Assembly: GCA_013140805.1 (NCBI GenBank)
Contig: JABFRW010000051.1
Coordinates: 1 to 36,534 of the forward strand
Length of the DNA stretch: 36,534 nucleotides
Reading direction: 5' to 3'
DNA from: Candidatus Eisenbacteria bacterium
GTDB taxonomy: Bacteria; Eisenbacteria; RBG-16-71-46
The notes under the pieces were generated by a model, which ran no database searches, was not told the origin of the DNA, and saw only the letters and a program-made list of their open reading frames with translations. Positions 9,453 to 29,900 of the stretch are shown piece by piece. How positions within the stretch are numbered: position 1 is the stretch's first letter; each line of letters starts with the position of its first letter. Both the position numbers and the translations under genes were made by a program.

Positions 9453-9513
9453 CCGATCGGAGGCGTGCGGGTTCACAGCAGTTTTGGTGTCGCGCAACAC
9501 CATGAAACAGCCC

Positions 9514-9530: not shown

Positions 9531-9543
9531 ACCTCGAACCCCA

Positions 9544-9557
9544 TGTGATCGTTCGAA
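9544..9557 (+). promoter_or_regulatory. Weak LacI-type operator-like site
   Basis: TGTGATCGTTCGAA matches the lacI-promoter operator TGTAATCGTTTTCA at 10 of 14 positions. It sits 14 nt behind the TTGACC of direct repeat copy 1. It overlaps the palindrome CGTTCGAACG (9550-9559). Taken alone it would be unconvincing; the duplicated context is what supports it. Confidence 0.3.
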
Positions 9558-9562
9558 CGGAA

Positions 9563-9579
9563 GACATTTCCGTTGACCG
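9563..9579 (+). repeat. 17-nt direct repeat, copy 2, with TTGACC
   Basis: This is an exact second copy of 9514-9530. Its TTGACC (9573-9578) is positioned as the -35 box of the promoter ending in the operator at 9594. Confidence 0.8.
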
Positions 9580-9607
9580 CCATGGAGCTCGCATGTAAAG
9601 GTTTTCA
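9573..9607 (+). promoter_or_regulatory. Promoter plus LacI-type operator for 9709 gene and GH1
   Basis: TTGACC (9573-9578), a 15-nt spacer, and TGTAAAGGTTTTCA (9594-9607) are present. The last element matches the lacI-promoter operator at 12 of 14 positions, and its first six bases resemble a -10 box. The geometry is identical to the two promoters at 20807-20841 and 21005-21039, which suggests the same regulator represses this unit. The centre reads GG rather than CG, so binding may be weaker. Confidence 0.6.
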
Positions 9608-12933: not shown

Positions 12934-12962
12934 GTTCGCCACCTTGCGCGCCGCGCCGCGCG

Positions 12963-12982
12963 AGCGCAATGGTGATTGCGCT
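12963..12982 (-). terminator. Hairpin between alpha-toroid gene and NHL-type gene
   Basis: AGCGCAAT (12963-12970) and ATTGCGCT (12975-12982) form a perfect 8-bp stem with a 4-nt loop. It lies just past the end of the minus-strand GH144/ABC operon and before the NHL-type start. There is no U-tract. It could be an operon-end or processing structure, or a regulator palindrome for the NHL-type gene. Confidence 0.45.
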
Positions 12983-13027: not shown

Positions 13028-16000
13028 TTATGGCGTCAGCAGAACCGTCGCAGGCAGTGACCGCACCACGACTTCGCCCTGGGACGTGATCGTCAGCGAC
13101 TTGCCGTTCAGAGTCGCGCGCGAGCGGGAGTGGATGCCCGGAGCCGCGACGACCAGCCCGCCCCGCGGAATGCGCGGGCCTGCCGCGATCTCCACGACCA
13201 CGCCGCGCCCCTCCGCGCGCATCCGGTAGGACAGCCGGCCGTACCAGGTGTTCAGGTCGCGCACCGCAACTCCTTCACCCTCTCGAAGCCAGGAGTCGGG
13301 AATGCCCGCACCGATCACCAGCGCGTCGTCGCGCTCGCGCTCGAACGCGAACAGGTCGAGCACCGAGCGCACGTAGTCGGAGCCCACCCAGGTGTGCGGA
13401 ATGTCGCCGACGAAGCGCGCGCGATCGGGGGCGTTCCACACCACTTCGGCCCACTGGGCCCACCCGGCCGGCGAGCGGTGCTCGAGGAACCACGACAACA
13501 GTTCCTGCGCGCGGTCACGCCATCCGAGACGCACGAACGCCCCGACGTTGCGGATCTCGTAGGGCGTGAAGGCTTCCCACTTCTCGCGGCCGTCACGGCG
13601 CTTGCGAAAGAAGTCCCAGTAGCGCTCGAAGGTGTTGAGGATCGTTCCGGGCGGCGCGACGTCCATCGCCTGCACGGGCGAGACCGCGATGGTCGTGGAG
13701 GTCGCGTCGAAGTCGCCGAGATCCGCGCAGCCGGGCACGTAGCCGATGCGGTGACGGCGCTGCGTGGCTCGAATCGAGGCGGCGAAATCGCGCCGGAACG
13801 CTGCGCGTACCGAGTCGATGTGGCGCGCGGCGGCCGGGTGTCCCAGCGTCTCGCCGAGGTAGACGGCATCTTCGAGGCCCTGCAACGCCCAGAAGTCGTC
13901 CCAGTAGGAATGCATCGGCTTGGCCGAGTAGCCCTCGTGACTGATCGAGGGCGGCAGGATGCCGAAGAACTCGGCCCGCGAGCGCGCGCGCCACTGCGCG
14001 CCGAGCCGCTGGTGGCGCAGCGAATCGATGTAGCCAGCGGCGGCCAGCGCATGCGGCCACAGCTTCGCGGCCGTGGTGCGATCGTCCGTGTGACGAAGGT
14101 ATTCGGCCAGCAGGTAGATGAACTGACCGTGACTGTCGTGCTCGGGGACCGGATCCGAGCCGCGCGCATCCACGCAGCACGGCACCTTTCCATCGCCGTA
14201 CTGGAACGGAGCGAACCACTCGAGGAAGCGCTTGACCGGCTCCGGCTGCCCCCAGCGCAGCAGCGCGGACGAAGTCAGCGAGCCGTCGCGAATCCACGAA
14301 CGCGCGTAGGCTCGGGATCCCGGCTGAATCGCAGGGCCGTCGCGATTGACGTGGATCCAGGCGATCTGAGCGGCCAGTGAGCGCTCGACTTCGCGCGCCG
14401 AGGGCGGCAGCCGGATCTCGGCGCTGCCCAGCAGCTCGCTCCAGTCGCGAACTTCGCCCTCGATCAGCGGCGTCACCCACGACGAGACTCGAACGCGCCC
14501 GGGACCCTCGGGAGCCAGCGTCGCGTCTGCGGACCGCGGGTGATCCAGCTCGAGGGCCACGCGCAACGAGTCGCCGGGCCGCAGGTCGAATGCGTAAGCG
14601 AGTGCACCCGATGCGCGAGCGAATGGATCCCGAACCGCGCGCGCGTGCGGCACGACCCCGCGCGCCAGATACTCGACCACGTCACCGGCATCGTAGGTTG
14701 CCGCGCCCCAGCCGGTCGGTGACGGTGCGGCATGCACGCTCGCGCCCTCGCCGAGATCGATGCGATCGCCGACCCGCGCGAGTGTGGCGAGCGGCGCGAC
14801 CCCGCCGAGTTGATTCAGGAACTGGGCCGGCGGATTGACCTGAAACGGTCGCGCGGCCAGGAACAACGTGCCCGCGCGGCGTGTGGCGCTCCGATTCACG
14901 ACGCGATAGACCACCAGCGTGCGCAGGCCCGGCAGTTCGGGCGCGGACATCGGCGCCGCGGTCACGGTCAGCTCGACCGGTGCACCGCTCCAGGTGACCG
15001 AGGGAATCGGCAGTCGCCCGTCGCGCAGCGTCTGAGCGGAGCGGACATCCGCCCACGTCCACAACCGGTGGTCGACCCACAGGAACGGCTCGATCGACGG
15101 CTGGCCCGTACCCAGATCGACCGCGCCGTCCTCCGAGACGAAGCTCTCGTCGCCACCACCGGCGGAGCCGACCACCGACCAGAACTGCATCTCCCCGCGC
15201 ATGCCGCGCGGATAGTGGCCGCGCGGGGCCGTTCGCGCGATGCGTTCGTAGAACGCATTCGCCGACGCCCCGAGTTCGAGCGCCAGCAGCGAAACATCGG
15301 CGAGCCCGATCGAACGCGCGCGCGCGCGCTTGCTGCTCGGCGTCGCGATGCGGATCAGGCGCGCTTCACTCTCGGGCAGCGACAGCCAATCGGTCCCGCC
15401 GTTACCGCCACGCACCTCGCGCGCCGTGCGCCACGCGACGCCGTCGGAGGACAGGCGGACGTCATAGTCGCCGGGGGGATTCGCGTCCTCCCATTGCAGT
15501 TTCAGCCCGCCGAACTCGCGCTCGGCGCCGAGATCGAGTTCCAGCCACGGCGCGGCGTCCTGGGCACTCGAGCGCCACGCGGTACTCGAATCGGCGTCGG
15601 CCGCGCGGGACGCCGCGAAGCCGGCAACCGACGACGAGGCACGAGCTGCGAGCGGGGGAGGCGTGGCGCTGGGCGCTGCGAGCTCCTCGAACGACAATTC
15701 GTCGAACCACACCGTGCCCTTGCCGCCGCTGCCCGCGGTGATCGCGAACTCGATGGCGGCGACGCGCTTCATCGGGCCGCCGCCGGCGGGACCCCATGCG
15801 AACTCGATCTGGCGCTGCTTGGTGGTGACGGTTTCCCAGGTGCGCGGGAAGACGAAGTCGCGTCGGTTCTTCCACCACACGTTCTCGCCACTCGGATCCA
15901 GCAGCTTGAACTCGAGTGTCTGAGGGGCGGTCGCCCCCTTCACGCGCACGCGGAAGCGATAGTTGGGCGGCAGCTCGAGTGCGAGCGGCCGCTGAAGCAC

Positions 16001-16237
16001 CGCGTAGCCGCCGCCTTTCTGGAAATCGAAATCGACGCGCAGCGCGTTGCCCGTCTCTCCGGGCTCGACCGAGAGTCGCATCTGCACACCGCTCGCCGGC
16101 AGCGGCTTCCAGACCGAGGCGTCCTCGAAGGCGTCGAGCACCGTGACGGCGCCACACGCGGGGCGCGCGATTGCAGCGGAGCTCAGCAGCATCGTGAGCA
16201 CCAGCATCAGCACCGGCGAGTGTGTCGGTGCGCTCAT
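13028..16237 (-). CDS. Exported CBM/discoidin/(alpha/alpha)-toroid protein, putative glycoside hydrolase
   Basis: The 1069-residue protein has a signal peptide (residues 1-30, ...TMLLSSAAIARPACGA). Next comes a CBM11/CIA30-like beta-sandwich (about 31-185, VLDAFEDASVWKP to VWFDELSFEEL), then a discoidin (F5/8C) domain (about 195-320). A beta-sandwich middle region follows (about 330-600), and then an alpha-helical toroid (about 615-1000) with SRAYARSWIRDGSL, PEHDSHGQFIYLL, SYWDDFWALQGLED and HTWVGSDYVRSVLDL. The W-I-R-D-G and W-D-D-F-W motifs recall clan GH-L/GH-G-type barrels. I cannot place it in a numbered GH family. Its ATG overlaps the stop of the permease gene (ATGA), which ties it to sugar import. 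The start at 16237 replaces a longer open frame to 16621 that only runs over the permease gene. A role on beta-1,2-glucan or its side groups is inferred from context alone. Confidence 0.85.
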   Translation of the reverse strand: MSAPTHSPVLMLVLTMLLSSAAIARPACGAVTVLDAFEDASVWKPLPASGVQMRLSVEPGETGNALRVDFDFQKGGGYAVLQRPLALELPPNYRFRVRVKGATAPQTLEFKLLDPSGENVWWKNRRDFVFPRTWETVTTKQRQIEFAWGPAGGGPMKRVAAIEFAITAGSGGKGTVWFDELSFEELAAPSATPPPLAARASSSVAGFAASRAADADSSTAWRSSAQDAAPWLELDLGAEREFGGLKLQWEDANPPGDYDVRLSSDGVAWRTAREVRGGNGGTDWLSLPESEARLIRIATPSSKRARARSIGLADVSLLALELGASANAFYERIARTAPRGHYPRGMRGEMQFWSVVGSAGGGDESFVSEDGAVDLGTGQPSIEPFLWVDHRLWTWADVRSAQTLRDGRLPIPSVTWSGAPVELTVTAAPMSAPELPGLRTLVVYRVVNRSATRRAGTLFLAARPFQVNPPAQFLNQLGGVAPLATLARVGDRIDLGEGASVHAAPSPTGWGAATYDAGDVVEYLARGVVPHARAVRDPFARASGALAYAFDLRPGDSLRVALELDHPRSADATLAPEGPGRVRVSSWVTPLIEGEVRDWSELLGSAEIRLPPSAREVERSLAAQIAWIHVNRDGPAIQPGSRAYARSWIRDGSLTSSALLRWGQPEPVKRFLEWFAPFQYGDGKVPCCVDARGSDPVPEHDSHGQFIYLLAEYLRHTDDRTTAAKLWPHALAAAGYIDSLRHQRLGAQWRARSRAEFFGILPPSISHEGYSAKPMHSYWDDFWALQGLEDAVYLGETLGHPAAARHIDSVRAAFRRDFAASIRATQRRHRIGYVPGCADLGDFDATSTTIAVSPVQAMDVAPPGTILNTFERYWDFFRKRRDGREKWEAFTPYEIRNVGAFVRLGWRDRAQELLSWFLEHRSPAGWAQWAEVVWNAPDRARFVGDIPHTWVGSDYVRSVLDLFAFERERDDALVIGAGIPDSWLREGEGVAVRDLNTWYGRLSYRMRAEGRGVVVEIAAGPRIPRGGLVVAAPGIHSRSRATLNGKSLTITSQGEVVVRSLPATVLLTP

Positions 16238-17055
16238 CCCTTGGTGCTCCCCATCATCACGCCCTCCACGTAGAAGCGCTGCAGGGCGAGGAACAGCACC
16301 ACCACCGGCAGCACCGTGAGTACTGCGCCCGCCATCATCAGTTCGGTGTCCTGCACGTGCTCGCCGACCAGGCTTGCGATCGCGACCGGCAGCGTGAAGC
16401 GCTTCTCGTCGGACAGCACGATCAGCGGCCACAGGAAGTCGTTCCAGGTCGCGAGGAAGTTGAAGGCCGCCTGCACCGCGAGGATCGGCTGGATGACCGG
16501 CAGCACCACCTCCCAGAAGATCCGCTTCTCGGACGCGCCGTCGATGCGCGCAGCGTCGAGCAGGTCGTCGGGGATCGAGAGCGCGTACTGGCGCACCATG
16601 AAGATGCCGAACACGCTGCACAGGTACGGCACCATCACGCCGAACATCGTGTTGAGGAAGCCCATCTTCTGCAGCAGCAGGAACAACGGCAGCATCCCCA
16701 CCTGCGTCGGGATCACGAGCGCGCCGAGCAGAATGTGGAACAGCGCATCGCGCCCACGGAACTTGAGCTTTGCGAACGCATAGCCGGCCATCGCATTGAG
16801 CATCACCGACACGGCGGTGGTGACCACCGTGACGAACAGGCTGTTGAGGAAATTGCGCCCCAGATTGAGGCGCGTGAACAGCTCACGGTAATGGTCGAGC
16901 GTCGGACGGCTCGGCAGCAGCGGCGGCGGAAACTGATTCGCCTCGCCGGCCGGCATCAGCGACGCCGAGATCATCCACGCCAGCGGAACGAGCGTCAGCG
17001 CCGCGAGGATCACGAGCGTGGCGTTCACCAACACTGCCGGCCCCGCGCGCTTCAT
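16234..17055 (-). CDS. ABC sugar permease, MalG/LacG type
   Basis: The 273-residue inner-membrane permease is of the carbohydrate-uptake-1 family. About six hydrophobic segments are visible, starting with VLVNATLVILAALTLVPLAW, and the EAA-loop motif DAARIDGASEKRIFWEVVLP lies near 163-182, where the ATPase docks. It starts inside the stop of the preceding permease (ATGA at 17052-17055) and ends inside the start of the toroid gene (ATGA at 16234-16237), so all three are translationally coupled. The open frame extends upstream to 17907, but that part only shadows the other permease. The substrate is inferred to be a sophoro-oligosaccharide from the GH144 and GH94 genes. Confidence 0.93.
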   Translation of the reverse strand: MKRAGPAVLVNATLVILAALTLVPLAWMISASLMPAGEANQFPPPLLPSRPTLDHYRELFTRLNLGRNFLNSLFVTVVTTAVSVMLNAMAGYAFAKLKFRGRDALFHILLGALVIPTQVGMLPLFLLLQKMGFLNTMFGVMVPYLCSVFGIFMVRQYALSIPDDLLDAARIDGASEKRIFWEVVLPVIQPILAVQAAFNFLATWNDFLWPLIVLSDEKRFTLPVAIASLVGEHVQDTELMMAGAVLTVLPVVVLFLALQRFYVEGVMMGSTKG

Positions 17056-17945
17056 GCGCCACGACCCTTCTGGATGCGCAACTGGATCATCGCGCCAATC
17101 AGCATGATCCCGAACAGCAGGAACGCGATCGAGGACGCGAGCCCGAGGCGCCACCATCGGAAGCCCTGCTCGTACATGAGCAGCACAATGCTGACGGTGC
17201 TGCGAAGCGGTCCGCCCTGCGTCATCACGTAGGGCTCCGGAAACAGCTGGAAGCTCGCCACCATGGTGTTGATCCCGACGAACAGGAAGGTGGGGGCGAG
17301 CGCCGGCAGCGTGATGTGGCGGAACTGAGCGAGGCCGCCCGCACCGTCGAGCCGCGCGGCCTCGTAGTGCTCCGCGGGGATGCTCTGCAGCCCGGCGACG
17401 AAGATCAGCATGTTGTAGCCGAAGTTCTTCCACACCGCGAGGATGATGATCGAGAACAGCGCGAGGTGCGGATCGCCGAGCCAGTCGGGGCCCTGGATAC
17501 CGAGCCCCGCCAGCGCGGAGTCGATGAGTCCGTAGCGCGGGTGGTAGAGGTAGCGCCACACGATCGCGACCGCGACCAGCGTGGTGACGACCGGCATGTA
17601 GAAAATCACGCGAAAGGTCGACTTGAAGCGCGCCAGCTTCGCGTTCACGAGCACCGCGGCGACCAGCGATGCCGCCACCGACAGCGGGCCGCCGACCAGC
17701 ACGTAGACGAAGGTGTTGCGCAGCGCGTTCCAGAACTCGGGGTCGGTGAGCGCCTGCTGGTAGTTGCGCCCGCCGATCCAGCGAGCGACCGAGGGATCGC
17801 CGATCGCGTAGATGTCGAAGTCGGTGAAGCTCATCACGAATCCGGTGACGACCGGCACCACGAAGAACACCGCGATCAGGATCAGGGCCGGCGCAAGGAA
17901 CACCCACGCCGTCGCATCCTGCCTCCGCAACGCGCGCACCGTCAT
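17052..17945 (-). CDS. ABC sugar permease, MalF/LacF type
   Basis: The 297-residue permease begins with a transmembrane segment (TAWVFLAPALILIAVFFVVP), is followed by about five more, and carries the EAA loop HYEAARLDGAGGLAQFRHITLP near 190-211. It pairs with the MalG-type permease encoded just downstream. The start at 17945 is chosen over 17963 because GGAG lies at the right distance before it. It follows the binding-protein gene after 40 bases and overlaps the next permease by four. Confidence 0.92.
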   Translation of the reverse strand: MTVRALRRQDATAWVFLAPALILIAVFFVVPVVTGFVMSFTDFDIYAIGDPSVARWIGGRNYQQALTDPEFWNALRNTFVYVLVGGPLSVAASLVAAVLVNAKLARFKSTFRVIFYMPVVTTLVAVAIVWRYLYHPRYGLIDSALAGLGIQGPDWLGDPHLALFSIIILAVWKNFGYNMLIFVAGLQSIPAEHYEAARLDGAGGLAQFRHITLPALAPTFLFVGINTMVASFQLFPEPYVMTQGGPLRSTVSIVLLMYEQGFRWWRLGLASSIAFLLFGIMLIGAMIQLRIQKGRGA

Positions 17946-17985
17946 CGCGTTCGCTCCAGGCATCGCCGCGCCGAGGGCCGCGCGA

Positions 17986-19257
17986 TCATCGCCTGTGCTC
18001 CAGCAGCCAGCGCCGTTTTTCGAGCATGCGATCGACCTCGCGATCGAGCGAGCGGAGTGCCACGTCGGGGGCGACGCTGCCGCGCACCGCGCGCTCGGCC
18101 CAATCCTGCAGCCGGATCGCGATCGGCTCCCACTCCGGCACCTTGGGCCACGGTGCGACGCGTTCCATCTGGCGTCCGAAGGCCGCGGTCGCAGGATCGC
18201 GTGTGAGCGCAGAGTCGCGCCACGCTTCGACGCGGGCCGGCAGATCGCCGGTGAGCTCGTAGAAGCGCACCTGCTGATCGGGCCGCGACAGGAACTCCAT
18301 CAGCTTCCACGCTTCCTCGGGGTGACGGGTGCCGCGAAACATCACGAGCGAGGATCCGCCGGCCATCGAGAGCCCCGGGCCGTCGGGGCCCGGCAGCGGG
18401 GCGGTGGTCCACTGCGATTGCGCCGCGGGAGACAATCGGCGCCGGAACTCGCCGAGGTTCCAGGGACCGGTGATCACCATTGCGAAGTAGCCGCGTTCGA
18501 ACTCCTGGTACATGTTCGCGATCTCGCTGTTCGAGAGCGGCGGAGCGAGGTGGCTCTTGAACAGGTCGACGAAGAACGTGAATGCGCCCGCGAACTCCGG
18601 CTGCGAGAACGCGCCGCGCGTCGCATTGTCGCGCAGGATCGGAGAGCCCGCCTGGAGCCCCAGGATCATGGGTGGATTCCATTCGTTGACCGGAAGGAAG
18701 ATCGCAAATCGCTCCGGTCCCACCACGCGCTTGATCGCTTCCATCGCGCGTCGCCACTCGGCCCAGGTGGTCGGCATCTCACGGTAGCCGGCCTGTGCGA
18801 GCAGATCGCGCCGATAGAAGAGCACGCGCGTGTCGACATACCAGGGCAGTCCGTACACCTGGCCGTCGACGACGTTGCCATCCCAGCTTCCGGCGAAGAA
18901 ACCACGCGCCGACACGGTGCTCGAGGTGTCGACGAATCCATCGAGCGGCCGCAGTGCGCGCAGCGCCACGAACTCGGCGATCCAGGTATTGCCGAGCTGC
19001 GAGAGGTCGGGCGCTGATCCGCCGACCTGCGCGGTGAGCAGCTTCTCGTGTGCGGCCGACCACGGGATCTGCTGGACTTCGACGCGCACGCCGGGATTCT
19101 CGAGTTCGAAGTCCCGCACCAGCTCCTCGACCACCTCGCCCTCGCGGCCCATCGCCCAGAAGCGCAGCGTCACCTGATTCGGCGCCGGCGCGCAGCTCAC
19201 GAATGCGGGCAGCACGGCGATCAAACACCACGCGATGGCGCGCGCGGAGCTCCTCAT
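17986..19257 (-). CDS. ABC sugar-binding lipoprotein (extracellular solute-binding family 1)
   Basis: The 423-residue protein has a lipoprotein signal (MRSSARAIAWCLIAVLPAFV, then S-C near residue 23; the lipobox is slightly off-consensus with F at -3). The mature part is a family-1 sugar-binding protein: VTLRFWAMGREGEVVEELV, FELENPGVRVEVQQIPW, APDLSQLGNTWIAEF, YGLPWYVDTRVLFYRRDLL and the late hinge segment WKLMEFLSRPDQQ. It delivers oligosaccharide to the two permeases encoded downstream. The start at 19257 overlaps the GH144 stop (ATGA), and a longer open frame to 19383 lies over GH144 coding sequence. It is the likely sophoro-oligosaccharide-binding component, by analogy with the Listeria innocua 1,2-beta-oligoglucan locus. 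Confidence 0.92.
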   Translation of the reverse strand: MRSSARAIAWCLIAVLPAFVSCAPAPNQVTLRFWAMGREGEVVEELVRDFELENPGVRVEVQQIPWSAAHEKLLTAQVGGSAPDLSQLGNTWIAEFVALRALRPLDGFVDTSSTVSARGFFAGSWDGNVVDGQVYGLPWYVDTRVLFYRRDLLAQAGYREMPTTWAEWRRAMEAIKRVVGPERFAIFLPVNEWNPPMILGLQAGSPILRDNATRGAFSQPEFAGAFTFFVDLFKSHLAPPLSNSEIANMYQEFERGYFAMVITGPWNLGEFRRRLSPAAQSQWTTAPLPGPDGPGLSMAGGSSLVMFRGTRHPEEAWKLMEFLSRPDQQVRFYELTGDLPARVEAWRDSALTRDPATAAFGRQMERVAPWPKVPEWEPIAIRLQDWAERAVRGSVAPDVALRSLDREVDRMLEKRRWLLEHRR

Positions 19258-20726
19258 GGAGCGGAGGGTGCGCGGTCGAGCCAGCCGCCCGTGAAGCCGG
19301 CGCGGCGCAGTCCACGAATCAGATGAGGATTGGTCCGCATGTGTTTCCACACCAGTTCGGAGCGCAGGTTCTCGATCATGCACACGATCGGCCCCTCGTC
19401 GATTCCGAGCCAGTCCGTGTCGAACCAGCCGACGCCCGGGACCACCTGACCATGCTGCAGCCGAATGGGCTGGTCGAGCGAGGGATTGAACGCGTCGAGG
19501 AATCCATATCGTCCATAGAGCGGTGCGCCGTATTTTTCTCGCATCGCCATCAGTGAGGGAATCACCACCTCGGGCGCGAATGCGATCGAGCCCGCGGCCG
19601 CAGTCGGAGCCAGCGTGCCATCGTCCTCGACGTGGAAGAACGCCGCTCCGCGCGCGGAGTAGGTGCGCAGCTTGCGCGACTTGCCGAGCAGCATGAGCGT
19701 CGTGTCGACGGGCCCGTCACATGCCGAGAGGCCCCACACCTCCGCTCCGTAGTCCTTCCAGCCGTTGGGATTCCGGATCGCATAGTCGCGCTGGGCGAGG
19801 GTCGCGCGGCGCGAGTTCTCGAAATAGTCGATGCCCTTCGCGCGCATGTACGAATCGGCGATGCCGCGGAAGTCCACCCAGATGTGCGAGTACTGGTGCC
19901 CGAACAGGGGCGGAAATCCCAGGTGCTCGTGGCCCTCGAACGTGCCCCACTGGTAGTTCTGGGTCCACGCCTGCCACGCCTCGGGCTCGACCGGATGAGT
20001 CGGCGAGCCGAGCGCCAGAATCATCATGATCATCGCCTCGTTGTAGCCCCGCCAGTCGTAGGGAATGAAGCCTTCCTCCGGGCTCCAGGCCAGCGCGATC
20101 GTCGGTGGGCGCACCTGGGCCCACTTCCAGTCGACGCGGCGATAGAGCGACTCGGCGAGCGCTCGAATCTCGACTTCGGCAGCATCACCTTGATCGAAGT
20201 ACGACTGGCAGAACAGCGCCCCCCCGAGCAGCAGGCCGGAGTCGACGGTCGAAAGTTCGACCTGCTCGAATCGACGCCCGGTGCCGGGCTCGAGGAAGTG
20301 GTAGTAGAAGCCGCGATACCCGGTGGCGCTGGCGCTCGAGTCGTGCGGCGCCGTCCAGAGGAATCGCAACGTCGCCAGCACGCGCCGGGCGGCCGCCGCG
20401 CGCGTGACCCAGCCGCGTTCCGCTCCGATCGGATAGGACGTGAGCGCAAATCCCATCGCTCCGGTGCTCGCGAACGAAGGCGTCGGGTAGCGATCCGGAG
20501 TGAGCCCCCGCGTGGTGTCACCGAGCTCCCAGAAGTAGAGAAAGCTGTGGCGTTGGAGCGAGTCGACGAACGCCTCGACCCGGGGCTCGGAGAGCCCGAG
20601 CGCACTCGCCTGCGATCGAACCTGAGCCTCGCGACACGACCCGATCGGAAGTGCCACCACCAACGCGACCAGGAGCGCCCAACGTCGCGCGAAGATTCCG
20701 GCGCATCCAGCCGACCACACGGTCAT
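19254..20726 (-). CDS. Lipoprotein GH144 endo-beta-1,2-glucanase
   Basis: The 490-residue protein has a lipoprotein signal (WALLVALVVALPIGSC, lipobox I-G-S-C near residue 31). The catalytic region is an (alpha/alpha)6 barrel of the GH144 type (Pfam 'glycoamylase' PF10091). It shows QRHSFLYFWE, YRGFYYHFLE, VELSTVDSGLLLGG, GYNEAMIMMILALGSP, FPPLFGHQYSHIWVDFR, KGIDYFENSRRATLAQ, AFAPEVVIPSL (with F preceding) and LGIDEGPIVCMIEN. These are shared nearly block for block with the protein at 31280-32872. GH144 members characterised so far act on linear beta-1,2-glucan. The start at 20726 has GGAGG just upstream, and a longer frame to 20825 runs across the operator. As first gene of the operon, it probably trims oligosaccharides in the periplasm or at a membrane face. 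Exact activity (endo or exo) is inferred. Confidence 0.88.
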   Translation of the reverse strand: MTVWSAGCAGIFARRWALLVALVVALPIGSCREAQVRSQASALGLSEPRVEAFVDSLQRHSFLYFWELGDTTRGLTPDRYPTPSFASTGAMGFALTSYPIGAERGWVTRAAAARRVLATLRFLWTAPHDSSASATGYRGFYYHFLEPGTGRRFEQVELSTVDSGLLLGGALFCQSYFDQGDAAEVEIRALAESLYRRVDWKWAQVRPPTIALAWSPEEGFIPYDWRGYNEAMIMMILALGSPTHPVEPEAWQAWTQNYQWGTFEGHEHLGFPPLFGHQYSHIWVDFRGIADSYMRAKGIDYFENSRRATLAQRDYAIRNPNGWKDYGAEVWGLSACDGPVDTTLMLLGKSRKLRTYSARGAAFFHVEDDGTLAPTAAAGSIAFAPEVVIPSLMAMREKYGAPLYGRYGFLDAFNPSLDQPIRLQHGQVVPGVGWFDTDWLGIDEGPIVCMIENLRSELVWKHMRTNPHLIRGLRRAGFTGGWLDRAPSAP

Positions 20727-20806: not shown

Positions 20807-20820
20807 TGTAACCGCTTACA
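20807..20820 (-). promoter_or_regulatory. LacI-type operator in GH144/ABC operon promoter
   Basis: On the minus strand it reads TGTAAGCGGTTACA, a near-perfect 14-bp palindrome with the central CG typical of LacI-family operators. Its first six bases, TGTAAG, lie where a -10 box would be, so bound repressor would block RNA polymerase. Confidence 0.78.
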
Positions 20821-20835
20821 TCCAAGTGCCTTCCC

Positions 20836-20841
20836 TGTCAA
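20836..20841 (-). promoter_or_regulatory. -35 box of GH144/ABC operon promoter
   Basis: TTGACA on the minus strand is a perfect -35 consensus, exactly 15 nt before the operator/-10 at 20820. Confidence 0.65.
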
Positions 20842-20849
20842 TGATTAGC

Positions 20850-20872
20850 TTGTGAGGCGAAGATTGTTGATG
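20850..20872 (-). repeat. Upstream box, arm 1 of a 23-nt inverted repeat
   Basis: It matches the reverse complement of 20974-20996 at 21 of 23 positions; the perfect core is GGCGAAGATTGT at 20856-20867 on the plus strand. It ends exactly 8 nt upstream of the GH144-operon -35. It is a candidate activator or second-regulator site. Confidence 0.7.
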
Positions 20873-20973
20873 CCTCGAATTCGGCACGTTCGACCACCGA
20901 AAATCGGGCTCTGGCACACCCGGTTCACGACTCGAGTCGGCGAAATTCTCGGCCTTCCTGGCCCCATTTCAGC

Positions 20974-20996
20974 CATCCACAATCTTCGCCACACAA
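20974..20996 (+). repeat. Upstream box, arm 2 of a 23-nt inverted repeat
   Basis: The core ACAATCTTCGCC is at 20979-20990. It ends exactly 8 nt upstream of the lacI -35 (21005). It has the same orientation relative to its promoter as arm 1 has to the GH144 promoter. Confidence 0.7.
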
Positions 20997-21004
20997 CCAA
21001 AGCG

Positions 21005-21031
21005 TTGACAGCGGAGTGACAGCGATGTAAT
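21005..21031 (+). promoter_or_regulatory. lacI-operon promoter
   Basis: TTGACA (21005-21010) is followed after 15 nt by TGTAAT (21026-21031), which differs from the -10 consensus TATAAT at one base. The short spacer is shared by all three promoters of this set. Confidence 0.68.
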
Positions 21032-21039
21032 CGTTTTCA
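21026..21039 (+). promoter_or_regulatory. LacI-type operator at lacI promoter (autoregulation)
   Basis: TGTAATCGTTTTCA fits the half-site pattern TGTAAnCGnTTnCA shared with 20807-20820 and covers the -10 box. Its place ahead of the regulator gene indicates autoregulation and control of the downstream surface genes. Confidence 0.75.
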
Positions 21040-21101: not shown

Positions 21102-22160
21102 ATGGCAACCATTCGTGACGTGGCCCGCGAGGCGGGCGTCTCGATCGCCACTATCTCACGTGTTTTCAACGCCAGCGCGCGCGTGAGCGAAGACACGACC
21201 TCACGGGTCCGCGAAGTGGCGGAGCGCATGGGGTACTGGCCCAACGGTGCCGCCCGCAGCCTTATCACCAAGCGGACCAACGCGATCGGCGTGCTGCTGC
21301 CCGACCTCTATGGCGAGTTCTTCTCCGAGGTGATTCGCGGCATCGATCTCACGGCGCGGCGCGAGGGCTATCACCTGGTGGTTTCGAGCTCCCACGCCGA
21401 TTCCAACGAGCTGCTGACCGCGCTCCAGACGGTGCGAGGACGCATCGACGGCTTGATCGTGATGGCACCCGATCTGGCCGACTCGGCTCCGTTCGACGAA
21501 TCGGCGCTGCGCTTTCCGATCGTGCTCGTCAATCCCGGCTTCACGACGACTCGCTGTGCCTCGGTCAGCACCGACAACGTCACGGGTGCCCGCGCGATGG
21601 TGCGTCACCTGGCGGCGCTGGGTCATCGCGAGATCGCCTTCATCGGCGGACCGCCTTCGAATCTCGATGCGCGCCAGCGTCAGCAGGGCTACCACGAGGC
21701 GCTCGCCGAGCTCGGCCTGCCGGCGACCCCGGGGCTCGAGGTCACAGGATCGTTCACCGAGTCGTCGGGCTTCGAGGCGACGCGCGAGTTGCTGTCGCGC
21801 ACTCGTCGCCTGGGCGCGATCTTCTGCGCGAACGACTGCATGGCGGTCGGCGCGATGAGTGCGCTTCGCCAGGCGGGACTGCGCGTCCCGGACGACGTGG
21901 CACTCGCCGGCTTCGACGACATTTCGATCGCCAGCTATCTCACGCCACGCCTCTCCAGTGTGCGAGTCGAGGCTTCACGCCTCGGCGAACGCGCGGTTCA
22001 GCTGCTGCTCGGCTGTCTCGCGCGCGTGGCGGCCCCCGGGCCGCGGCAGCCGATGCCGCACGAGATTCTCCCGACCTCGCTCGTGGTTCGCGAGTCGAGT
22101 GGTGCCACGCCTGATCGAGTGATGCAGACCGCCAACGGCTCGGCGGTGCCAAGCTCCTGA
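21102..22160 (+). CDS. LacI-family transcriptional regulator of the glucan locus
   Basis: The 352-residue protein has an N-terminal helix-turn-helix (ATIRDVAREAGVSIATISRV, then the hinge helix near PNGAARSL) and a periplasmic-binding-like effector domain. That domain contains AIGVLLPDLYGEFFSEVIRGI, STDNVTGARAMVRHL, HREIAFIGGP, AIFCANDCMAVGA and VALAGFDDISIASYLTP, all standard for the family. The ATG at 21102 has CGGAG five bases upstream; a GTG at 21096 adds two residues. It sits behind its own operator and first in the plus-strand operon. LacI proteins usually release DNA when a cognate sugar binds, so sophorose or a sophoro-oligosaccharide is the inferred inducer. Operators at 20807, 21026 and probably 9594 define its likely regulon. 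Confidence 0.95.
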   Translation: MATIRDVAREAGVSIATISRVFNASARVSEDTTSRVREVAERMGYWPNGAARSLITKRTNAIGVLLPDLYGEFFSEVIRGIDLTARREGYHLVVSSSHADSNELLTALQTVRGRIDGLIVMAPDLADSAPFDESALRFPIVLVNPGFTTTRCASVSTDNVTGARAMVRHLAALGHREIAFIGGPPSNLDARQRQQGYHEALAELGLPATPGLEVTGSFTESSGFEATRELLSRTRRLGAIFCANDCMAVGAMSALRQAGLRVPDDVALAGFDDISIASYLTPRLSSVRVEASRLGERAVQLLLGCLARVAAPGPRQPMPHEILPTSLVVRESSGATPDRVMQTANGSAVPSS

Positions 22161-22237
22161 TTCCAACCGGATCGCCCACCGCGGTCCGTCCCGTTCCCGT
22201 GTTGCACCTCGCACCTCGTCTGCTGGAGGTAGTCATC

Positions 22238-24163
22238 ATGAGAGCCCGAATTTTCGCGGTCGCGGCGCTCGCGCTGTTTCTCGCCGCGACGGCCCACGCA
22301 CAGGTTGCACGTCAGGACGTGTTCTGGGCCCGCTCGACCGGGGGAGCCGCGATCACGCTGGATGGTTTGCTCAATGAGCCGGCGTGGGCGCAGGCCGAGT
22401 CACTCAAGATTCGCTGGCAGCAGGACACCGGCATTCCGGGCAGCGGTTACAAGGCGGAGGGCGGCATCCTGCCGGTCGATCCGACCCGTGCCACGATCAA
22501 GTTCCTGACCGTCGGCAATCGCCTCTACATGGCGGCGATCGTGCCGGACAGCTCGATCGGCGGCTCCGAGGAGTTCAATCGCTTCGACGGCATCCTCATG
22601 CAGTTCAAGGACAAGACGGTCGTGGGTGCGCATCCGGCGCCGCCGGCCGAGTTCCTGTACTCGTGGTGGTACCCGGGCACCTCGCAGAACCCGCGTGCGG
22701 TCAACAAGCTTCCGGGCTTCGTCGGCAAGTGGGGCAACTTCCCGCCCGACACGGCACGCACTCCGACCCAGATCGACAACTGGAACGCGGTCACGGTCGT
22801 GACCGGCATCACGAATGCCGACGGCATCAGCCCGGCCGATTCGACCGACAAGCGCTGGGTGGTCGAGATGATGTTCAACCTCGAGGGCGTTGGTTACGAC
22901 ATCACGGACGCCGACGGCGACATCGTCGCGTTCAACCTCTCGCTCTACGACTGCGACTGGTTCTGGACCAACCCGCTGAGCTTCTTCTTCTCGGTGAACC
23001 GCACCTGGTGGCAGGGCCCGTGGGGAAACTCGGCGGGCTACAACTCGGTGCGTCTGTTCGCGCGTCCGAACGTGACGATCGCATCGGGCGCGGTTCCGGT
23101 CGTCGCCCCGGAGTTGATCGTTCCGAACGCCGGCAACTACCCGGTGCCCGCGATCGACGGTCAGCTGAACGACCAGGTGTGGTCGCACGCGCCGCACTTC
23201 GACATTCGCTACGGTGACGATGCGAACTTTGCGACCTACCCGGGTCTCGGGCCGGTGCTCAGCGGTCAGTATCAGCCGGTGATCGCCGGCAACCAGGCGT
23301 TCATCGGGGATCCGGCCGACGCGACGGTCTACTACTTCGTGCGCGATGACTCGCTGTTCCTCGGCTTCGACGTCCGCGACCAGTTCGTGCAGTACAGCCT
23401 CGATGAGAACCTGTACGACGGCTTCCGCGTGTCGCTCAATGAGTACACGCTGCACGACTTGGTCGATCACGTGCTGCAGGGTCGGCGCCTCACGTTCCAG
23501 GTCGGACCGACCGGTCAGGCGAAGACGCTCGACTATCTGACCACGATGCAGGACACCTCCGGCACCGCCCGCGTGCGGCTGTTCCTCAAGCCCGGAACCG
23601 TCGTCGACAACCCGCCGCAGGCGCTCGACAACGGTTACCAGGCAGAGCTGGTCGTCAACCTGCGCGGACTCGGATACCCGGCCGGACTCGGCGAGCGTCG
23701 TCTTCACTGGGGCATCACGCACATCGATGGCGACCAGTTCTCGGCGCCCGAGGACACGTATGGCGCGCGGGCATGGTGGTTCCGCGAGTACGACAGCACG
23801 AGCGGTCCGGTGTGGGCGCATCTGTCGGCGACCCAGTTCGTCACCGGCGTCGGCGACGGCGATCCGACCCCCGCGGGACCTTCGCTCGCACTGCTCGGCA
23901 GTCATCCGAACCCGTTCAAGTTCGGCACCGCGGTCCGCTTTTCGCTGCCCCGAGAGGCCGACGTTCGACTCGACGTCTACGACCTGCAGGGGCGCCACGT
24001 GAGCCGGGTTGCGGGCGGTCGTCTCGCCGCCGGCCCCCAGCAGCTCCAGGTGCTCGGCCAGTCGTGGCGTTCGGGCGTCTACCTGTATCGTCTGCGCATG
24101 ATCGATCCCGCGACCGGGGTCGAGCTCGCGAGCGCGAACGGCCGCATGCTCAAGGTGAACTGA
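22238..24163 (+). CDS. Surface CBM9-like protein with T9SS-type C-terminal domain
   Basis: The 641-residue protein has a Sec signal (MRARIFAVAALALFLAATA, then HAQ near residue 21). It contains two CBM9/PF06452-like beta-sandwich modules, each opening with the hallmark D-G-x-L-N-(E/D)-x-x-W: LDGLLNEPAWAQA at about 37 and IDGQLNDQVWSHA at about 306. It ends in a FlgD-Ig/T9SS type A-like domain (about 550-641): SHPNPFKFGTAVRFSLP, VRLDVYDLQGR, SGVYLYRLRM. CBM9-like modules bind sugars or support carbohydrate capture, and such C-terminal domains send cargo across the outer membrane. It is the first structural gene after lacI. GGAGG eight bases upstream fixes the start. It is probably a surface glucan-binding protein; the ligand is inferred. 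Confidence 0.85.
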   Translation: MRARIFAVAALALFLAATAHAQVARQDVFWARSTGGAAITLDGLLNEPAWAQAESLKIRWQQDTGIPGSGYKAEGGILPVDPTRATIKFLTVGNRLYMAAIVPDSSIGGSEEFNRFDGILMQFKDKTVVGAHPAPPAEFLYSWWYPGTSQNPRAVNKLPGFVGKWGNFPPDTARTPTQIDNWNAVTVVTGITNADGISPADSTDKRWVVEMMFNLEGVGYDITDADGDIVAFNLSLYDCDWFWTNPLSFFFSVNRTWWQGPWGNSAGYNSVRLFARPNVTIASGAVPVVAPELIVPNAGNYPVPAIDGQLNDQVWSHAPHFDIRYGDDANFATYPGLGPVLSGQYQPVIAGNQAFIGDPADATVYYFVRDDSLFLGFDVRDQFVQYSLDENLYDGFRVSLNEYTLHDLVDHVLQGRRLTFQVGPTGQAKTLDYLTTMQDTSGTARVRLFLKPGTVVDNPPQALDNGYQAELVVNLRGLGYPAGLGERRLHWGITHIDGDQFSAPEDTYGARAWWFREYDSTSGPVWAHLSATQFVTGVGDGDPTPAGPSLALLGSHPNPFKFGTAVRFSLPREADVRLDVYDLQGRHVSRVAGGRLAAGPQQLQVLGQSWRSGVYLYRLRMIDPATGVELASANGRMLKVN

Positions 24164-24174
24164 CCTTCTTCGCG

Positions 24175-24207
24175 GCGCCGGCGGAGGACCCCTTCCCCCG
24201 CCGGCGC
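24175..24207 (+). terminator. Strong hairpin between CBM9-like and TonB-receptor genes
   Basis: GCGCCGGCGG (24175-24184) and CCGCCGGCGC (24198-24207) make a perfect 10-bp G/C stem with a 13-nt loop in the 63-base gap. There is no U-tract. It is a probable attenuator or mRNA stabiliser that sets a higher level for the upstream binding protein than for the receptor. Confidence 0.5.
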
Positions 24208-24226
24208 GAGGTGAACTCCGCCCCAC

Positions 24227-26935
24227 ATGCTGCCCCTCCGTCTTCGACTGGCCGCCGCCGTGTGCATGCTCGCGGTGGCGGTCGTGCCGTGGCTCGCCGT
24301 TGCCGGCACGACCGGCAAGGTGAGCGGGCGCGTCGTTGACCCGGCGGGCAAGCCGTTGCTCGCGGTGAATGTGATCCTGGTCGGTGCGCGTCTCGGTGCC
24401 GTGTCCGACGAGTCCGGCGAGTTCTCGATCCTCAATGTGCCGCCCGGCACGTACGACCTGAAGGCGAGCCTGATCGGCCGCCAGTCGATGACGCTGACCG
24501 GACTCGTCGTGTCGGCGGACCGGACCAGCAAGGCCGACCTGACGCTGCGCGAGCAGGCCGTCGGACTCGAGGAGATCGTGGTGACCGCGAAGCGTCCGGT
24601 GGTCGAATCCGATCTCACCAGCACGCGATTCATCGTGCGCGCCGAGGAGATCGCGAAGCTTCCGGTGCAGGACCTGCAGGAGCTCGTGAACCTTCAGGCG
24701 GGCGTCGTCGACGGCCACGTGCGAGGCGGCCGCACCGGTGAGGTGCAGTATCAGGTGAACGGTGTGAGCGTGAACAACCTGTACGACAACTCGGCGGGCA
24801 TCAAGCTCGACCGCTCGCTGCTCCAGGAAGTGCAGGTGATCAGCGGCACCTTCGACGCCGAGTACGGCCAGGCGCTGAGCGGCGTAGTCAATGCGGTGCT
24901 CAAGTCCGGAAGTGACCGCTTCGAGTGGAACGCGGAGCTCTACGCCGGCGACTACCTGTTCGACGGCGGGCGTGAAACCGCTCCCGGTCACGTGCCGGGC
25001 GACCGCCTGGTCTCGGACAGCTTCCGTCCGATCTCGACGCACAACATGCAGGCGAGCGTGAGCGGCCCCTCCGGGCTTTCGCAGACGACGTTCCTCGTGA
25101 GTGGACGCTGGTTCGTCAACCGCGACTATCTGCGCGGCTCGCGATACTTCCTGCCGACCGACCAGAACGACTTCCAGAACCAAATCCTCCATCCGAACGG
25201 GGACGGTCTCACCCAGTCGCTCGGCTATTCGAAGGAGTGGTCGGGTCTCGCGAAGCTCACGAACAAGCACTGGTCGAGCGTCACCATGAGCTACGAGGCA
25301 TTGTTCAACGCGATCGAGGGTCGACGGGGCGGCCACGAGGGCGGCGGCACCTTTCGCTGGCGATACAATCCGGACGGCATGAAGACGCAGCACACGCTGA
25401 ACCTGGTCCACGGCTTCGACTGGACCCAACGGCTCTCGAAGAACTCCTTCTACAACTTGACCTGGCGCCAGAACCGCGTGGACTACACCGATTGGGCCTA
25501 CGAGGACGTATTCGATCCTCGCTACGATGCGGCGGGCGCACCGCAGAGCGATCCCTCGTTCGAGAACGACGCCTACATCCAGGGTGTCGACCTCGGCCGC
25601 TTCGAGCAGAACACCGACGCGTGGATCGCCAAGGCATCGGCCACCAGCCAGATTCATCGCTACCATCTGGTCAAGGTCGGCGGCGAGATCCAGCGTCCGC
25701 GCGTCCGGTTCGGCGCACCCGGAACGCTCACGTTCGGTACCGTCGACGGGCGTGAGCAGATGATCCGCCACATCGACGAGCCGCCGGACTACCCGGGCGT
25801 CTACACCTACAACCCGGTGCTCGCCTCGGCGTTTGCGCAGGACCAGGTCGAGTGGCGTGACCTCACGGTGCGGGCGGGTTTGCGCTTCGAGTTCTTCGAT
25901 GCGCGCTCGACGATTCCGAGCGACCTCGCGAATCCCGCAAACTCGATCCAGGGCGCCCCGCAGTCGGTGCCGAAGGCGACCACGAACAGGATGTCGTTCT
26001 CGCCGCGCGTCGGCATCTCGTATCCGGTCGGCGCTCGGGCCGCCGTGTTCTTCTCGTACGGGCACTTCTATCAGTTGCCGGGTCTGGGCCAGATCTTCGG
26101 CAACGCTGACTATTCGATCCTCGAGAACCTGCAGGCCGGCGACGTGCGCTTCGGCGTGCTCGGGAATCCGGACATCAAGCCCGAGCGCACCGTCCAGTAC
26201 GAGTTCGGCTACAAGCACGCGATCACGAGCGATCTGGGACTCGACTTCACGGCGTTCTACAAGGACATCCGCGATCTGCTCGGCGTCGAGTTCGTCGACA
26301 CCTACGCCGCGTCGGAATACGCGCGACTGACGAACGTCGACTTCGGCAACGTGCTGGGCCTGACACTCGCGCTCGATCAGCGCGCAGTCGGACCGCTGAG
26401 CGCCACGATGGACTACACGTGGCAAGTCGCCGAGGGGAACGCGAGCGACCCACGGGAGACGGCGACACGCGCCGAGAACGGCGAGGATCCCAGGCCGCGA
26501 CTCGTTCCGCTCAACTGGGATCAGCGCCACACGTTGAACCTCACGTTCACGCTCTCGAATCCGGACCGCTACACCGCGGCCGCGATCGTGCGTGTGGTGA
26601 GCGGGCAGCCCTACACGCCCGAGATCACGACCGGTTTCGGAGGAGGCCTCGAGGCGAACTCGGGGCGCAAGCCGAATGGAATGCTGATCGACGTGCGCGG
26701 AGAGCACTTCCTGTCGACGCGTCGCGGCGTCAGGATGTTCGCGCGCGTGTTCAATCTGTTCGACACGCGAATCTACAACGGCTTCGTGTTCGCCGATACG
26801 GGCTCGCCCGATTACTCGCGCACGCCGGGGGCCAACCGCGCCGCACTCGCCGATCCGTTGCGCTTCTACTCGCCGCGGCGAGTCGAGGTCGGGCTGACCG
26901 CGAGCGGATTCCTGGGTGGGGGGGGAGCGAAATGA
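24227..26935 (+). CDS. TonB-dependent outer-membrane receptor
   Basis: The 902-residue protein has a signal peptide (residues 1-26, ...LAVAVVPWLAVAG). A carboxypeptidase-regulatory-like N-terminal domain follows (about 30-112, KVSGRVVDPAGKPLLAVNV to LNVPPGTYDL), then VGLEEIVVTAKRP. The plug domain (about 118-225) contains VRGGRTGEVQYQVNGVSV and FDAEYGQALSGVVNAVLKSGS, and the 22-strand-type barrel makes up the rest. This is the energised channel for large glycans across the outer membrane, similar in layout to SusC. No SusD gene is next to it; the 1111-residue protein downstream may take that place. It overlaps the next gene by four bases (ATGA). A run of eight G (26918-26925) lies in its last codons, and the C-terminus is LGGGGAK after the usual terminal phenylalanine position. 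Confidence 0.93.
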   Translation: MLPLRLRLAAAVCMLAVAVVPWLAVAGTTGKVSGRVVDPAGKPLLAVNVILVGARLGAVSDESGEFSILNVPPGTYDLKASLIGRQSMTLTGLVVSADRTSKADLTLREQAVGLEEIVVTAKRPVVESDLTSTRFIVRAEEIAKLPVQDLQELVNLQAGVVDGHVRGGRTGEVQYQVNGVSVNNLYDNSAGIKLDRSLLQEVQVISGTFDAEYGQALSGVVNAVLKSGSDRFEWNAELYAGDYLFDGGRETAPGHVPGDRLVSDSFRPISTHNMQASVSGPSGLSQTTFLVSGRWFVNRDYLRGSRYFLPTDQNDFQNQILHPNGDGLTQSLGYSKEWSGLAKLTNKHWSSVTMSYEALFNAIEGRRGGHEGGGTFRWRYNPDGMKTQHTLNLVHGFDWTQRLSKNSFYNLTWRQNRVDYTDWAYEDVFDPRYDAAGAPQSDPSFENDAYIQGVDLGRFEQNTDAWIAKASATSQIHRYHLVKVGGEIQRPRVRFGAPGTLTFGTVDGREQMIRHIDEPPDYPGVYTYNPVLASAFAQDQVEWRDLTVRAGLRFEFFDARSTIPSDLANPANSIQGAPQSVPKATTNRMSFSPRVGISYPVGARAAVFFSYGHFYQLPGLGQIFGNADYSILENLQAGDVRFGVLGNPDIKPERTVQYEFGYKHAITSDLGLDFTAFYKDIRDLLGVEFVDTYAASEYARLTNVDFGNVLGLTLALDQRAVGPLSATMDYTWQVAEGNASDPRETATRAENGEDPRPRLVPLNWDQRHTLNLTFTLSNPDRYTAAAIVRVVSGQPYTPEITTGFGGGLEANSGRKPNGMLIDVRGEHFLSTRRGVRMFARVFNLFDTRIYNGFVFADTGSPDYSRTPGANRAALADPLRFYSPRRVEVGLTASGFLGGGGAK

Positions 26936-29900
26936 CCTGGAGCTTTCCGGGAGCGCGCGACATGCGGGAGGCGCGCCGTGTGCGCCGCTGGATCAGCTCG
27001 TTCGCGCGCGAGTCGATCGCCGCAACCGCAGTGCTGGCGATGCTCGCCAACGTCTCACTGGCACAACTGGCGCCGGTCGTGCCGGCGAGCCAGCGGAGCC
27101 GCGTCGATGCCGAGCGTTCGGGCACGCACGATGCCGCGAACCTGCGCACGGTGTTCTACAACTTCGGCATGGTCGGCGACTACATGGGCGGACCTGTCGA
27201 CCTGAGCGTCTTCCACTCCGTCGAGGTGCCGAAGGGTACCGGGATGAACTACGGGGACGGCATCACGCCGTTCGTGCTCACGCCGGTGCGCCAGCGCGGC
27301 GGCGACATCGCGTACGTGATGGAGACCGGCTTCCGCGAGCGGCAGGGCATCAGCCCGCGACGCAACCGGCAGATGCGCTTCGAACCACGCCCCGGCTACT
27401 TCCAGCCCGACCCGGCCATCAATCGCGGGCGCTCGCCCGCCATGAGTCACGATCCGCGCACCTGGCCGACCACGTGGCCCGACAAGCTGAACGACCCGGA
27501 CGATCCAGGCTGGGCAGGGTCCTGGAACGGCTACTTCGGGAAGCGCGCCGCCGCCGATCAGGAAAGCTTCACGGTGATGGACGACGACTTCTACGACGCG
27601 TTCGACTATCGCTCCGACACGCGCGACAGCACGCGCCTCGGGCTCGGACTGCGCGTCGAGGTGCGCGGCTTCCAGTGGGCGAATCCGCAGGCCGGCAACG
27701 TGATCTTCTGGCATTACGACATCCTGAACGAGAGCACGTCCGACTACGACAGCGTCGTGTTCGGCCTCTACATGGACTCGGGCGTCGGTGGCTCGACCGT
27801 GTCGTGCGACGGCATTCCGGAGTCGGATGACGACAATGCGTTCTTCGATCGATCGCTGGGATTGAACCTCGTCTACACGTGGGACAACCGCAATCGTGGC
27901 GTCGATCTCTCGGGCAACTGCGCTCCGACCGGCTACCTGGGCTACGCGTATCTCGAAACACCGGGCAATGCGCTCGACGGCCTCGACAACGACGGCGACG
28001 GGATTCTCAACGAGCGGCGAGACGGTGGTCCGGGCACCCGGATCGACGGCCGCGACGCGATCTACGCGGCGATCGCCGCACGTGTCGACACGGCCGCTTT
28101 CGAGCGCGCAATCGGGCCCATCCGTCAGCGCCCCGCCTACCTCAAGGGCGTCTGGTGGACCGGCGACGAGGACATGGACTGGGATCCCGAGTTCAGCGAC
28201 GTCGGCGCGGATGGAGTCGAGGAGACTGGCGACACCGGCGAGGGCGACGGCATTCCGAGCGAAGGGGAGCCGAACTTCGATCGCACCGATTTGAACGAGT
28301 CGGACCAGATCGGTCTGACCGGCTTCAAGCAGAACCGCATTCGCTCGCTGCAGGGCTTCCCCGTCGACGGCATCATCTTCTTCGACGACGACCAGCACTG
28401 GCCGCAGCGGCTCTACCAGAAGTTCACTGATCCGAATCCCGCGGCGCGCTTCGACTCGTCGCTGGTGGAGAACTACAACATCGGCTTCCTGTTCGCATCG
28501 GGTCCGTTCGCGCTCAAGGCCGGACAGAACGAGCGCTTCAGCCTGGCACTCGCCTACGGCGCCGATCTCACCGAGCTGCGCACGACCGTTCGCACCGTGC
28601 AGCAGATCTACGACGCGAACTACCAGTTCGCAGTGCCGCCGCCGATGCCCACCGTGAAAGCCGAGGCGGGTGACGGCTACGTGCGGCTCTCCTGGGACGA
28701 CGCCGCCGAGCGCGGCACCGATCCGGTCACGTTCGAGAACGACTTCCAGGGCTACCGGATCTACCGCTCGACCGATCCCGACTTCCTCGACCCGCGCGTG
28801 ATTCGTACGGGGCGCGGCACGAGCACCGTCGGCGTCGGCAAACCGATCACCCAGTTCGACGTGCGCGACACCATCTCGGGCTACTCACCCCAGACCCAGG
28901 ACGGTGTGGCCTACTGGCTCGGCACCAACACCGGCGTCGTGCACACATTCACCGACACGCTCGTGACGAACGGCCAGCAGTACTACTACGCCGTGTGCTC
29001 GTACGACCATGGCGTCAACACCGAGCGCTTCCAGTTCTACCCATCCGAGAGCCCGGTCGCGGTCTCGCGAACGCCGCGCGGGGGTACGATCCTGCCGCCG
29101 AACGTCGTGAGCGTGCGGCCGAATCCACGCGTGCTCGGTTACGAAGAGGCCGAGATCCAGGACCTGCAGCATGCCGCCGGAATCGGTCGCGGCACGGTGA
29201 GCGTGCGCAACGTGAACTCCGGGTTGATCCCGGAGGGGCATCTGTTCGCGCTGACCTTCACGGCGCCCGACTCCGACAGCATCGCGGCGACGCAATACTG
29301 GCTGAGGGACAGCACCGATCACCGGCTGCTGATCGCACGGGGGAGCGACCTGCGCGGGCTCGGGCTCGGTCCGACCGCCGATGGTCTGCTGCCGGTCGTC
29401 GCCACCGACTCGACGGTGCGTCCCAACTATGCACGCAGCGGCTACGCCACCGGCAGCACGACCAACACGCGGGCGCTCCTGACGACGTATGCGAGTTCAG
29501 GCGTCCCGTTCAACTACAACCAGTATCAACCCTACTTTCCGGACAGCATCCGAATCGTGTTCGACGACGTCGTGCGGGACACTTCGATCATCAACACGAT
29601 CAACAGCTTCAACTTCGCTCGCCCCGCCAGGTTTCGCGTGTATGCGCTCACCGCGAATGGCGAACAGCAACTCGACTTCGGATTCCGCGATCAGAACAAC
29701 GACGGAACGCTGAGCGTGCAGGGCGATGCGATCGGCGTGATGTCCTACTCGCCCTCGGCGCCGACCGTACCGATCGCGATGTGGCGCGTGTCCTACGACA
29801 GCACCGGGCAGAGTGCACGCGGGCCGGTGGATGCGCCGTCGCTCGGCGATGTGTACGACATCAAGCTCGTGCTGCCGTTCACGGTGAGAGACACCTTCAC

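Follow-up and report, generated by a model that had tools for sequence, protein, structure and literature searches.

The window analysed here, a 36,534-nucleotide stretch of Candidatus Eisenbacteria DNA, carries three copies of a composite element in which a TTGAC(A/C) hexamer is followed by 15 nt and a 14-bp LacI-type operator. Judging from sequence comparison, these probably serve as promoters in a single autoregulated regulon for beta-1,2-glucan use, under the LacI-family protein encoded at 21102, with the operator standing in the place of the −10 element. TTGAC(A/C)-N15-TGTAAnnGnTTnCA has three exact matches in the window and none in 100 dinucleotide shuffles. We searched the rest of the 3.8-Mb assembly with the pattern TTGAC-N16-TGTAANNGNTTNCA, i.e., the hexamer TTGACN, 15 nt and the 14-bp operator, and found no match beyond the three window sites; the reversed-pattern control also gave 0. 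All positions, hexamers and operators quoted in the initial annotation are correct (Table 1). It had also placed the sites before exactly the three plausible transcription units of the locus; each site does head a unit, with the refinements that the third unit opens with SecX, a conserved secreted protein, GH1 being second, and that a degenerate fourth site exists. The operator of the latter, TGTGATCGTTCGAA, matches the consensus at 10/14 positions, with a chance expectation of about 1% in the window. This degenerate −35/operator unit is carried by a 24-nt direct duplication, whose copies (9514-9537 and 9563-9586) lie 49 bp apart. When a weight matrix was applied to the window in search of further operators for the GH94 or CBM9 genes, no position other than the known sites scored more than 9 bits. 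Bare-operator matches elsewhere in the genome (contigs C164 and C151, among others) were set aside as chance-like: when a single mismatch was tolerated, the control had as many matches (8/10) as the real search.

Table 1. Promoter-operator sites and genes of the window.
Feature	Position	Strand	Remarks
GH94 phosphorylase	5316-9242	-	divergent from SecX; no own operator found
Degenerate tandem unit upstream of SecX site	9524-9557	+	TTGACC, 14 nt, TGTGATCGTTCGAA
Promoter-operator, SecX-GH1	9573-9607	+	TTGACC 9573-9578, 15 nt, operator TGTAAAGGTTTTCA 9594-9607
SecX, conserved secreted protein	9709-10521	+	first gene behind site 9573-9607
GH1 beta-glucosidase	10592-11977	+	second gene, after SecX
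Sugar ABC transporter and CBM32 enzyme	13028-19383	-	SBP 17986-19383, permease 17052-17963
CBM32-containing enzyme	13028-16621	-	last in GH144a unit
Second permease	within ORF 16234-17907	-	sugar ABC transporter
GH144a endo-beta-1,2-glucanase	19254-20726	-	closest solved relative XcSGL 8xul, E 6e-166
Promoter-operator, GH144a unit	20807-20841	-	TTGACA 20841-20836, 15 nt, operator TGTAAGCGGTTACA 20820-20807
Promoter-operator, lacI unit	21005-21039	+	TTGACA 21005-21010, 15 nt, operator TGTAATCGTTTTCA 21026-21039
lacI, LacI-family repressor	21102-22160	+	sole PF00356 gene of genome
Presumed CBM9-like secreted protein, TonB-dependent receptor, OM protein, PorV-like protein, GH144b	22199-32872	+

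The genes around these sites make up a beta-1,2-glucan utilisation locus, in which GH144 glucanases, a GH94 phosphorylase and a beta-glucosidase, all of predicted specificity, come together with transport genes, and this set is kept across the family. Pfam, NCBIfam and PDB comparisons agree that both glucanases belong to PF10091, and the closest solved relative of GH144a is described as a GH144 enzyme (PMC12102758). The probable start of GH144a is ATG 20726; the TTG at 20825 given in the ORF list falls upstream of the operator. Gene order and spacing suggest three units, each presumably a single transcript: GH144a to the CBM32 enzyme on the minus strand, and lacI to GH144b and SecX-GH1 on the plus strand. 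The secreted protein behind lacI, which we take to be CBM9-like, has no Pfam match. C-terminal sorting domains of the T9SS type, scoring around the cut-off, were seen at 22199-24163 and 31223-32872, and a PorV-like protein at 30264-31283; their presence in the locus suggests type IX secretion of the glucanase.

The protein encoded at 21102 is a member of the LacI family by PF00356 (62.2 bits) and PF13377 (138 bits), both above cut-off, and its structure matches are CcpA, PurR, LacI and RbsR. By score it belongs to none of the named equivalogs: the CcpA equivalog TIGR01481 scores 198.8 bits against a cut-off of 442, while RbsR, CytR, PurR, GalR and other named equivalogs all fall below theirs, the best being RbsR with 226 of 382. 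This single LacI-family gene of the genome adjoins two of the three sites, and we presume that its product regulates all of them. A role as an activator would also be compatible with the sequence. The operators follow the even-palindrome form of the family, with a central CG in 35 of 36 promoters, the exception being the SecX site of the window (GG).

To see how far this arrangement reaches, we turned to 20 genomes of the family, allowing any gap from 8 to 28 nt behind TTGAC in the first scan. Thirty-one sites were found in 16 of the 20 genomes, all of them with TTGACN at 14, 15 or 16 nt from the operator; the control gave 0. When the gap was widened to 6–32 nt and the set to 47 genomes from the class and phylum, a single site was added, at 15 nt, contributed by a genome from the same order; controls stayed at 0. 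An operator-only search of the family returned 37 places: 31 with TTGAC, four with TTTACA and two with neither, so that 35 of 37 carry one of the two −35 sequences at 14, 15 or 16 nt. The four TTTACA sites all stand, at exactly 15 nt, before the second lacI of one genus. Joining the family promoters with that of the same-order genome gives 36, of which nine have a gap of 14, 24 of 15 and three of 16 nt; their −35 is TTGAC in 32 cases and TTTACA in four, i.e., of the sigma-70 type, as in ordinary promoters of the clade. Beyond the −35, the operator and an A preceding the latter, the flanks hold little information. Conservation of the motif at orthologous loci, by which the initial annotation had proposed to stand or fall, is thus borne out, while its spacing of exactly 15 nt holds in this genome but not in the family.

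Tblastn with the window proteins places the sites inside the orthologous beta-1,2-glucan locus in 16 of the 20 genomes, where they are confined to positions ahead of lacI, the glucanase operon, the CBM9/TonB-receptor operon and SecX. The remaining four genomes have neither the LacI gene nor an operator site; in another one, 79% complete, an operator site is present and LacI was not found. In six genomes, from several genera, lacI lies inside or beside an operon with no strict site of its own. Two more lacI promoters have degenerate operators, AGTAATCGTTTTCA and GGTAAACGATTCCA; here, too, TTGACN stands exactly 15 nt away. The five genomes of genus g3 contain two lacI copies, heading the glucanase/ABC operon and the TonB-receptor operon, respectively, whereas the window has one, situated between both. 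Overall, given the conservation at orthologous loci, the single LacI gene and the confinement of sites to genes of the locus, there is good support for a single, autoregulated regulon for beta-1,2-glucan whose promoter-operator is conserved. In the family locus L214 (G014:C110, around 1065-1120), one operator has TTGACG on both sides, at 15 and 16 nt, and it is possible that this is a bidirectional promoter sharing a single operator/−10.

Whether the operator really serves as the −10 was judged against ordinary promoters of the clade, taken from 1.35 Mb of DNA, mostly from relatives. There, TTGAC[AGC] is followed by TANNNT 16 times at 17 nt and 19 times at 18 nt, vs 0–4 times at other distances, and TTGACA-TANAAT in the 20 genomes peaks likewise at 17–18 nt. 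Among the 36 operator promoters, none has TANNNT at N15–20, and no canonical −10 appears at 16–19 nt. Because a clade-normal TANNNT is missing from all of them, we infer that the operator occupies the −10, as the initial annotation had proposed; this is likely and, given the conserved −35, would be far likelier than a promoter elsewhere. With G invariant at operator position 2 and CG at the centre, such a −10 would necessarily be non-canonical. Both hexamers that might be read as the −10 are poor by the standard of the clade's own promoters.

The first of these hexamers is TAANCG, read at 16, 17 or 18 nt (mode 17), which keeps the spacing within the normal window of the clade at the price of T-7, lost to the central CG of the operator. 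T-12 and A-11 are then present in 36/36 promoters, and the degenerate lacI sites AGTAATCG and GGTAAACG, which have lost operator T1, keep TAANCG at N17. However, TAANCG agrees with the −10 consensus at 2/6 positions, and ordinary promoters show no clear excess of TA...[ACG] at N17/18, which suggests that promoters of the clade require T-7. We regard such a register as plausible, though it falls a little short of an even chance.

A true short-spacer class, with TGTAAT as the −10 at 14–16 nt and read in that register, looks rather doubtful to us. TGTAAT equals TATAAT at 5/6 positions; the proximal half has T at operator position 6 in 26/36, whereas the distal half has mostly A at the matching position, and in non-palindromic operators it is the TGTAA half that faces the −35. 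Yet A-11 is missing in all promoters in this register, position 6 is A in eight and G in two, and two degenerate lacI sites lose position 1 (the −12 T) while keeping the −35 at 15 nt. Ordinary clade promoters peak at 17–18 nt, with no excess of TG...T at 15. TTGACA-N9-25-TGTAAT gave 15 matches, of which 12 are operators; the other three, at N9, N14 and N17, were too few for us to retain a 15-nt class independent of LacI operators. Since TTGACA-N14/15-TGTAAT occurs outside operators only once in 20 genomes, a separate short-spacer class is not seen, and this part of the initial annotation finds no support: the combination is nearly confined to operators, and the same sites can also be read at 16/17/18 nt to TAANCG. 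We also considered deriving the register from half-site asymmetry, and abandoned it, as the asymmetric TGTAATCGTTTTCA also occurs in a class of bacterial sites at N7 (see below), whose −10 does not lie in the proximal half.

It is unlikely that the TTGAC/operator pair lies outside the promoter core, with the real promoter elsewhere and TTGAC being the site of a second protein or a part of a longer LacI site. The poor quality of both −10 registers would speak for it; however, TANNNT was found within the 40 nt after the operator in just one of 36 promoters, and TTGAC is the −35 both of ordinary clade promoters and of the orthologous G035 promoter, which has TATAAT. Chance or an alignment artefact, for which one could invoke the shortness of the motifs, deserves practically no credence, given that shuffles and reversed controls gave 0 and that 11 genera all fall within 3 of the 27 gaps permitted (by a naive estimate, a probability of about 3e-11; genera rather than sites are the independent units here because sites in one family share ancestry).

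Relatives outside the family help to place this geometry. Families f3 and f9 of the class (genomes G020 and G035) have the orthologous locus with the divergent GH144a/lacI layout of the window, and their lacI promoters share with it the TTGAC −35 and an orthologous LacI (53–55% identity). The promoter of G035 reads TTGACG-N17-TATAATGTAACCGGTTTC, with TATAAT at the −10 position, and that of G020 TTGACA-N17-GATGATGTAACCGTTTTC, with GATGAT there. Unlike in the window, the operator in both starts at N22, 7 nt further downstream, and overlaps the last T of the 17-nt −10 position. Such geometry marks TTGAC as the −35 and the N14–16 arrangement as a lineage trait; relatives thus meet the same problem with a different promoter-operator geometry. 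An attempt to tell from a LacI tree which geometry is older found no resolved branching at the tree base.

Across bacteria, with each species represented by a single genome, a scan for TTGACA-N6-30-TGTAATCGTTTNCA gave at least 118 stretches. Their distances fall at N6–8 (at least 41), at N25–29 (at least 42) and at N14–16 (at least nine, five of those listed coming from Candidatus Eisenbacteria). Sites of the form TTGACA-N7/8-TGTAATCGTTTnCA, seen in Chloroflexota, Azospirillum, Chromobacterium and Collinsella, resemble ours in operator sequence, in fixed distance and in having operator bases inside the −10. In the N7 class, however, the distal operator end (TACAnT/TTCAnT) lies at the 17-nt −10, while in the Eisenbacteria family the proximal half would lie in the −10, the distance being 14–16. 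Operator bases within the −10 are therefore not special to the lineage, and the register is.

Taken together, these comparisons allow us to propose how the promoters work, although DNA binding by the repressor, its effect on transcription, its ligand and the precise −10 register are all inferred. TTGAC would act as a sigma-70-type −35 element and the 14-bp LacI operator would lie in the −10 place, sigma and repressor using the same bases. When the ligand is absent, the repressor dimer would cover the −10 and exclude RNA polymerase, to be released by a product of beta-1,2-glucan breakdown such as a sophoro-oligosaccharide, sophorose or glucose. The −10 would be TGTAAT at 15 nt, without A-11, or TAANCG at 17 nt, without T-7, and one would expect a weak promoter kept in a narrow distance window. 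A bolder form of this proposal, which we put forward tentatively and stop short of calling probable, is that in this lineage the LacI operator has wholly taken the place of the −10 box, leaving TTGAC and a half-operator as the core promoter in 11 genera with no canonical −10 in any register. If true, RNA polymerase would start from TTGAC plus TGTAAT (15 nt) or TAANCG (17 nt), a core promoter shaped by a repressor.

Control by an operator within the promoter is already known, and the geometry described here is a variation, particular to one lineage, on the usual control of sugar genes by repressors. Operators of the LacI family form even palindromes around a central CG, most of them lie 30–140 nt ahead of the start codon, and autoregulation is frequent (PMC4052901). 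The local sugar regulons treated in the sections of that study considered here (Ravcheev et al. 2014) share with ours a single local autoregulated regulator, an even palindrome with central CG, sites within this range of the start codon, and carbohydrate genes. Those sections state how far sites lie from start codons and from one another and describe no fixed −35-to-operator distance, in contrast to the near-invariant geometry across Eisenbacteria genera. CcpA/cre sites that overlap promoters repress by interference with polymerase, certain positions repressing best (PMC3463425). The 14-bp cre operator is very similar to that of the window and also has preferred positions, but where cre lies varies widely between genes, and our regulator lies far below the CcpA equivalog cut-off. 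Native sigma-70 spacers in E. coli cover 15–21 bp, with an optimum of 17–18 (PMC8695583). Clusters from Listeria innocua and Streptomyces griseus combine beta-1,2-glucan degradation with an ABC transporter and a beta-glucosidase (GH1 in S. griseus), as the window does; a word search in PMC12369401 met no LacI or repressor, and the passages considered here contain no account of a TonB receptor system, while the window has both. What we add is a predicted regulon for the beta-1,2-glucan locus of Candidatus Eisenbacteria, with SecX named as its most constant target, and a distance kept to ±1 base across genera that share about half of their protein residues. As the operator-to-−35 distance is nearly fixed, comparing genera makes it possible to tell apart the constraints that sigma and the repressor each place on the same DNA.

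Finally, we would like to comment on SecX, whose gene comes first behind these promoters more constantly than any other; orthologs occur in 13 relatives, where they directly follow one of the sites. The protein is secreted, has about 270 aa and 43–53% identity across genera, and matches no family in Pfam or NCBIfam; in four genomes it is duplicated in tandem. A fold prediction reached a mean pLDDT of 45 and was not used. An element resembling CAGTTTCATG recurs 5′ of the −35 in SecX promoters, at about 9440-9460 in the window and at four loci of genus g3, and may be the site of a second regulator. The motif (S/T)WGxLKxxYR (or FR) stands directly before the stop codon in unrelated proteins, both in the window (9709-10521 and 11968-12969) and at three further loci (L257, L277 and L289). 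Ends of this type were found in 13 ORFs in about 1.4 Mb, mostly SecX orthologs, vs none in reversed DNA, and we consider them a candidate signal by which Eisenbacteria may sort or anchor proteins through the C-terminus.
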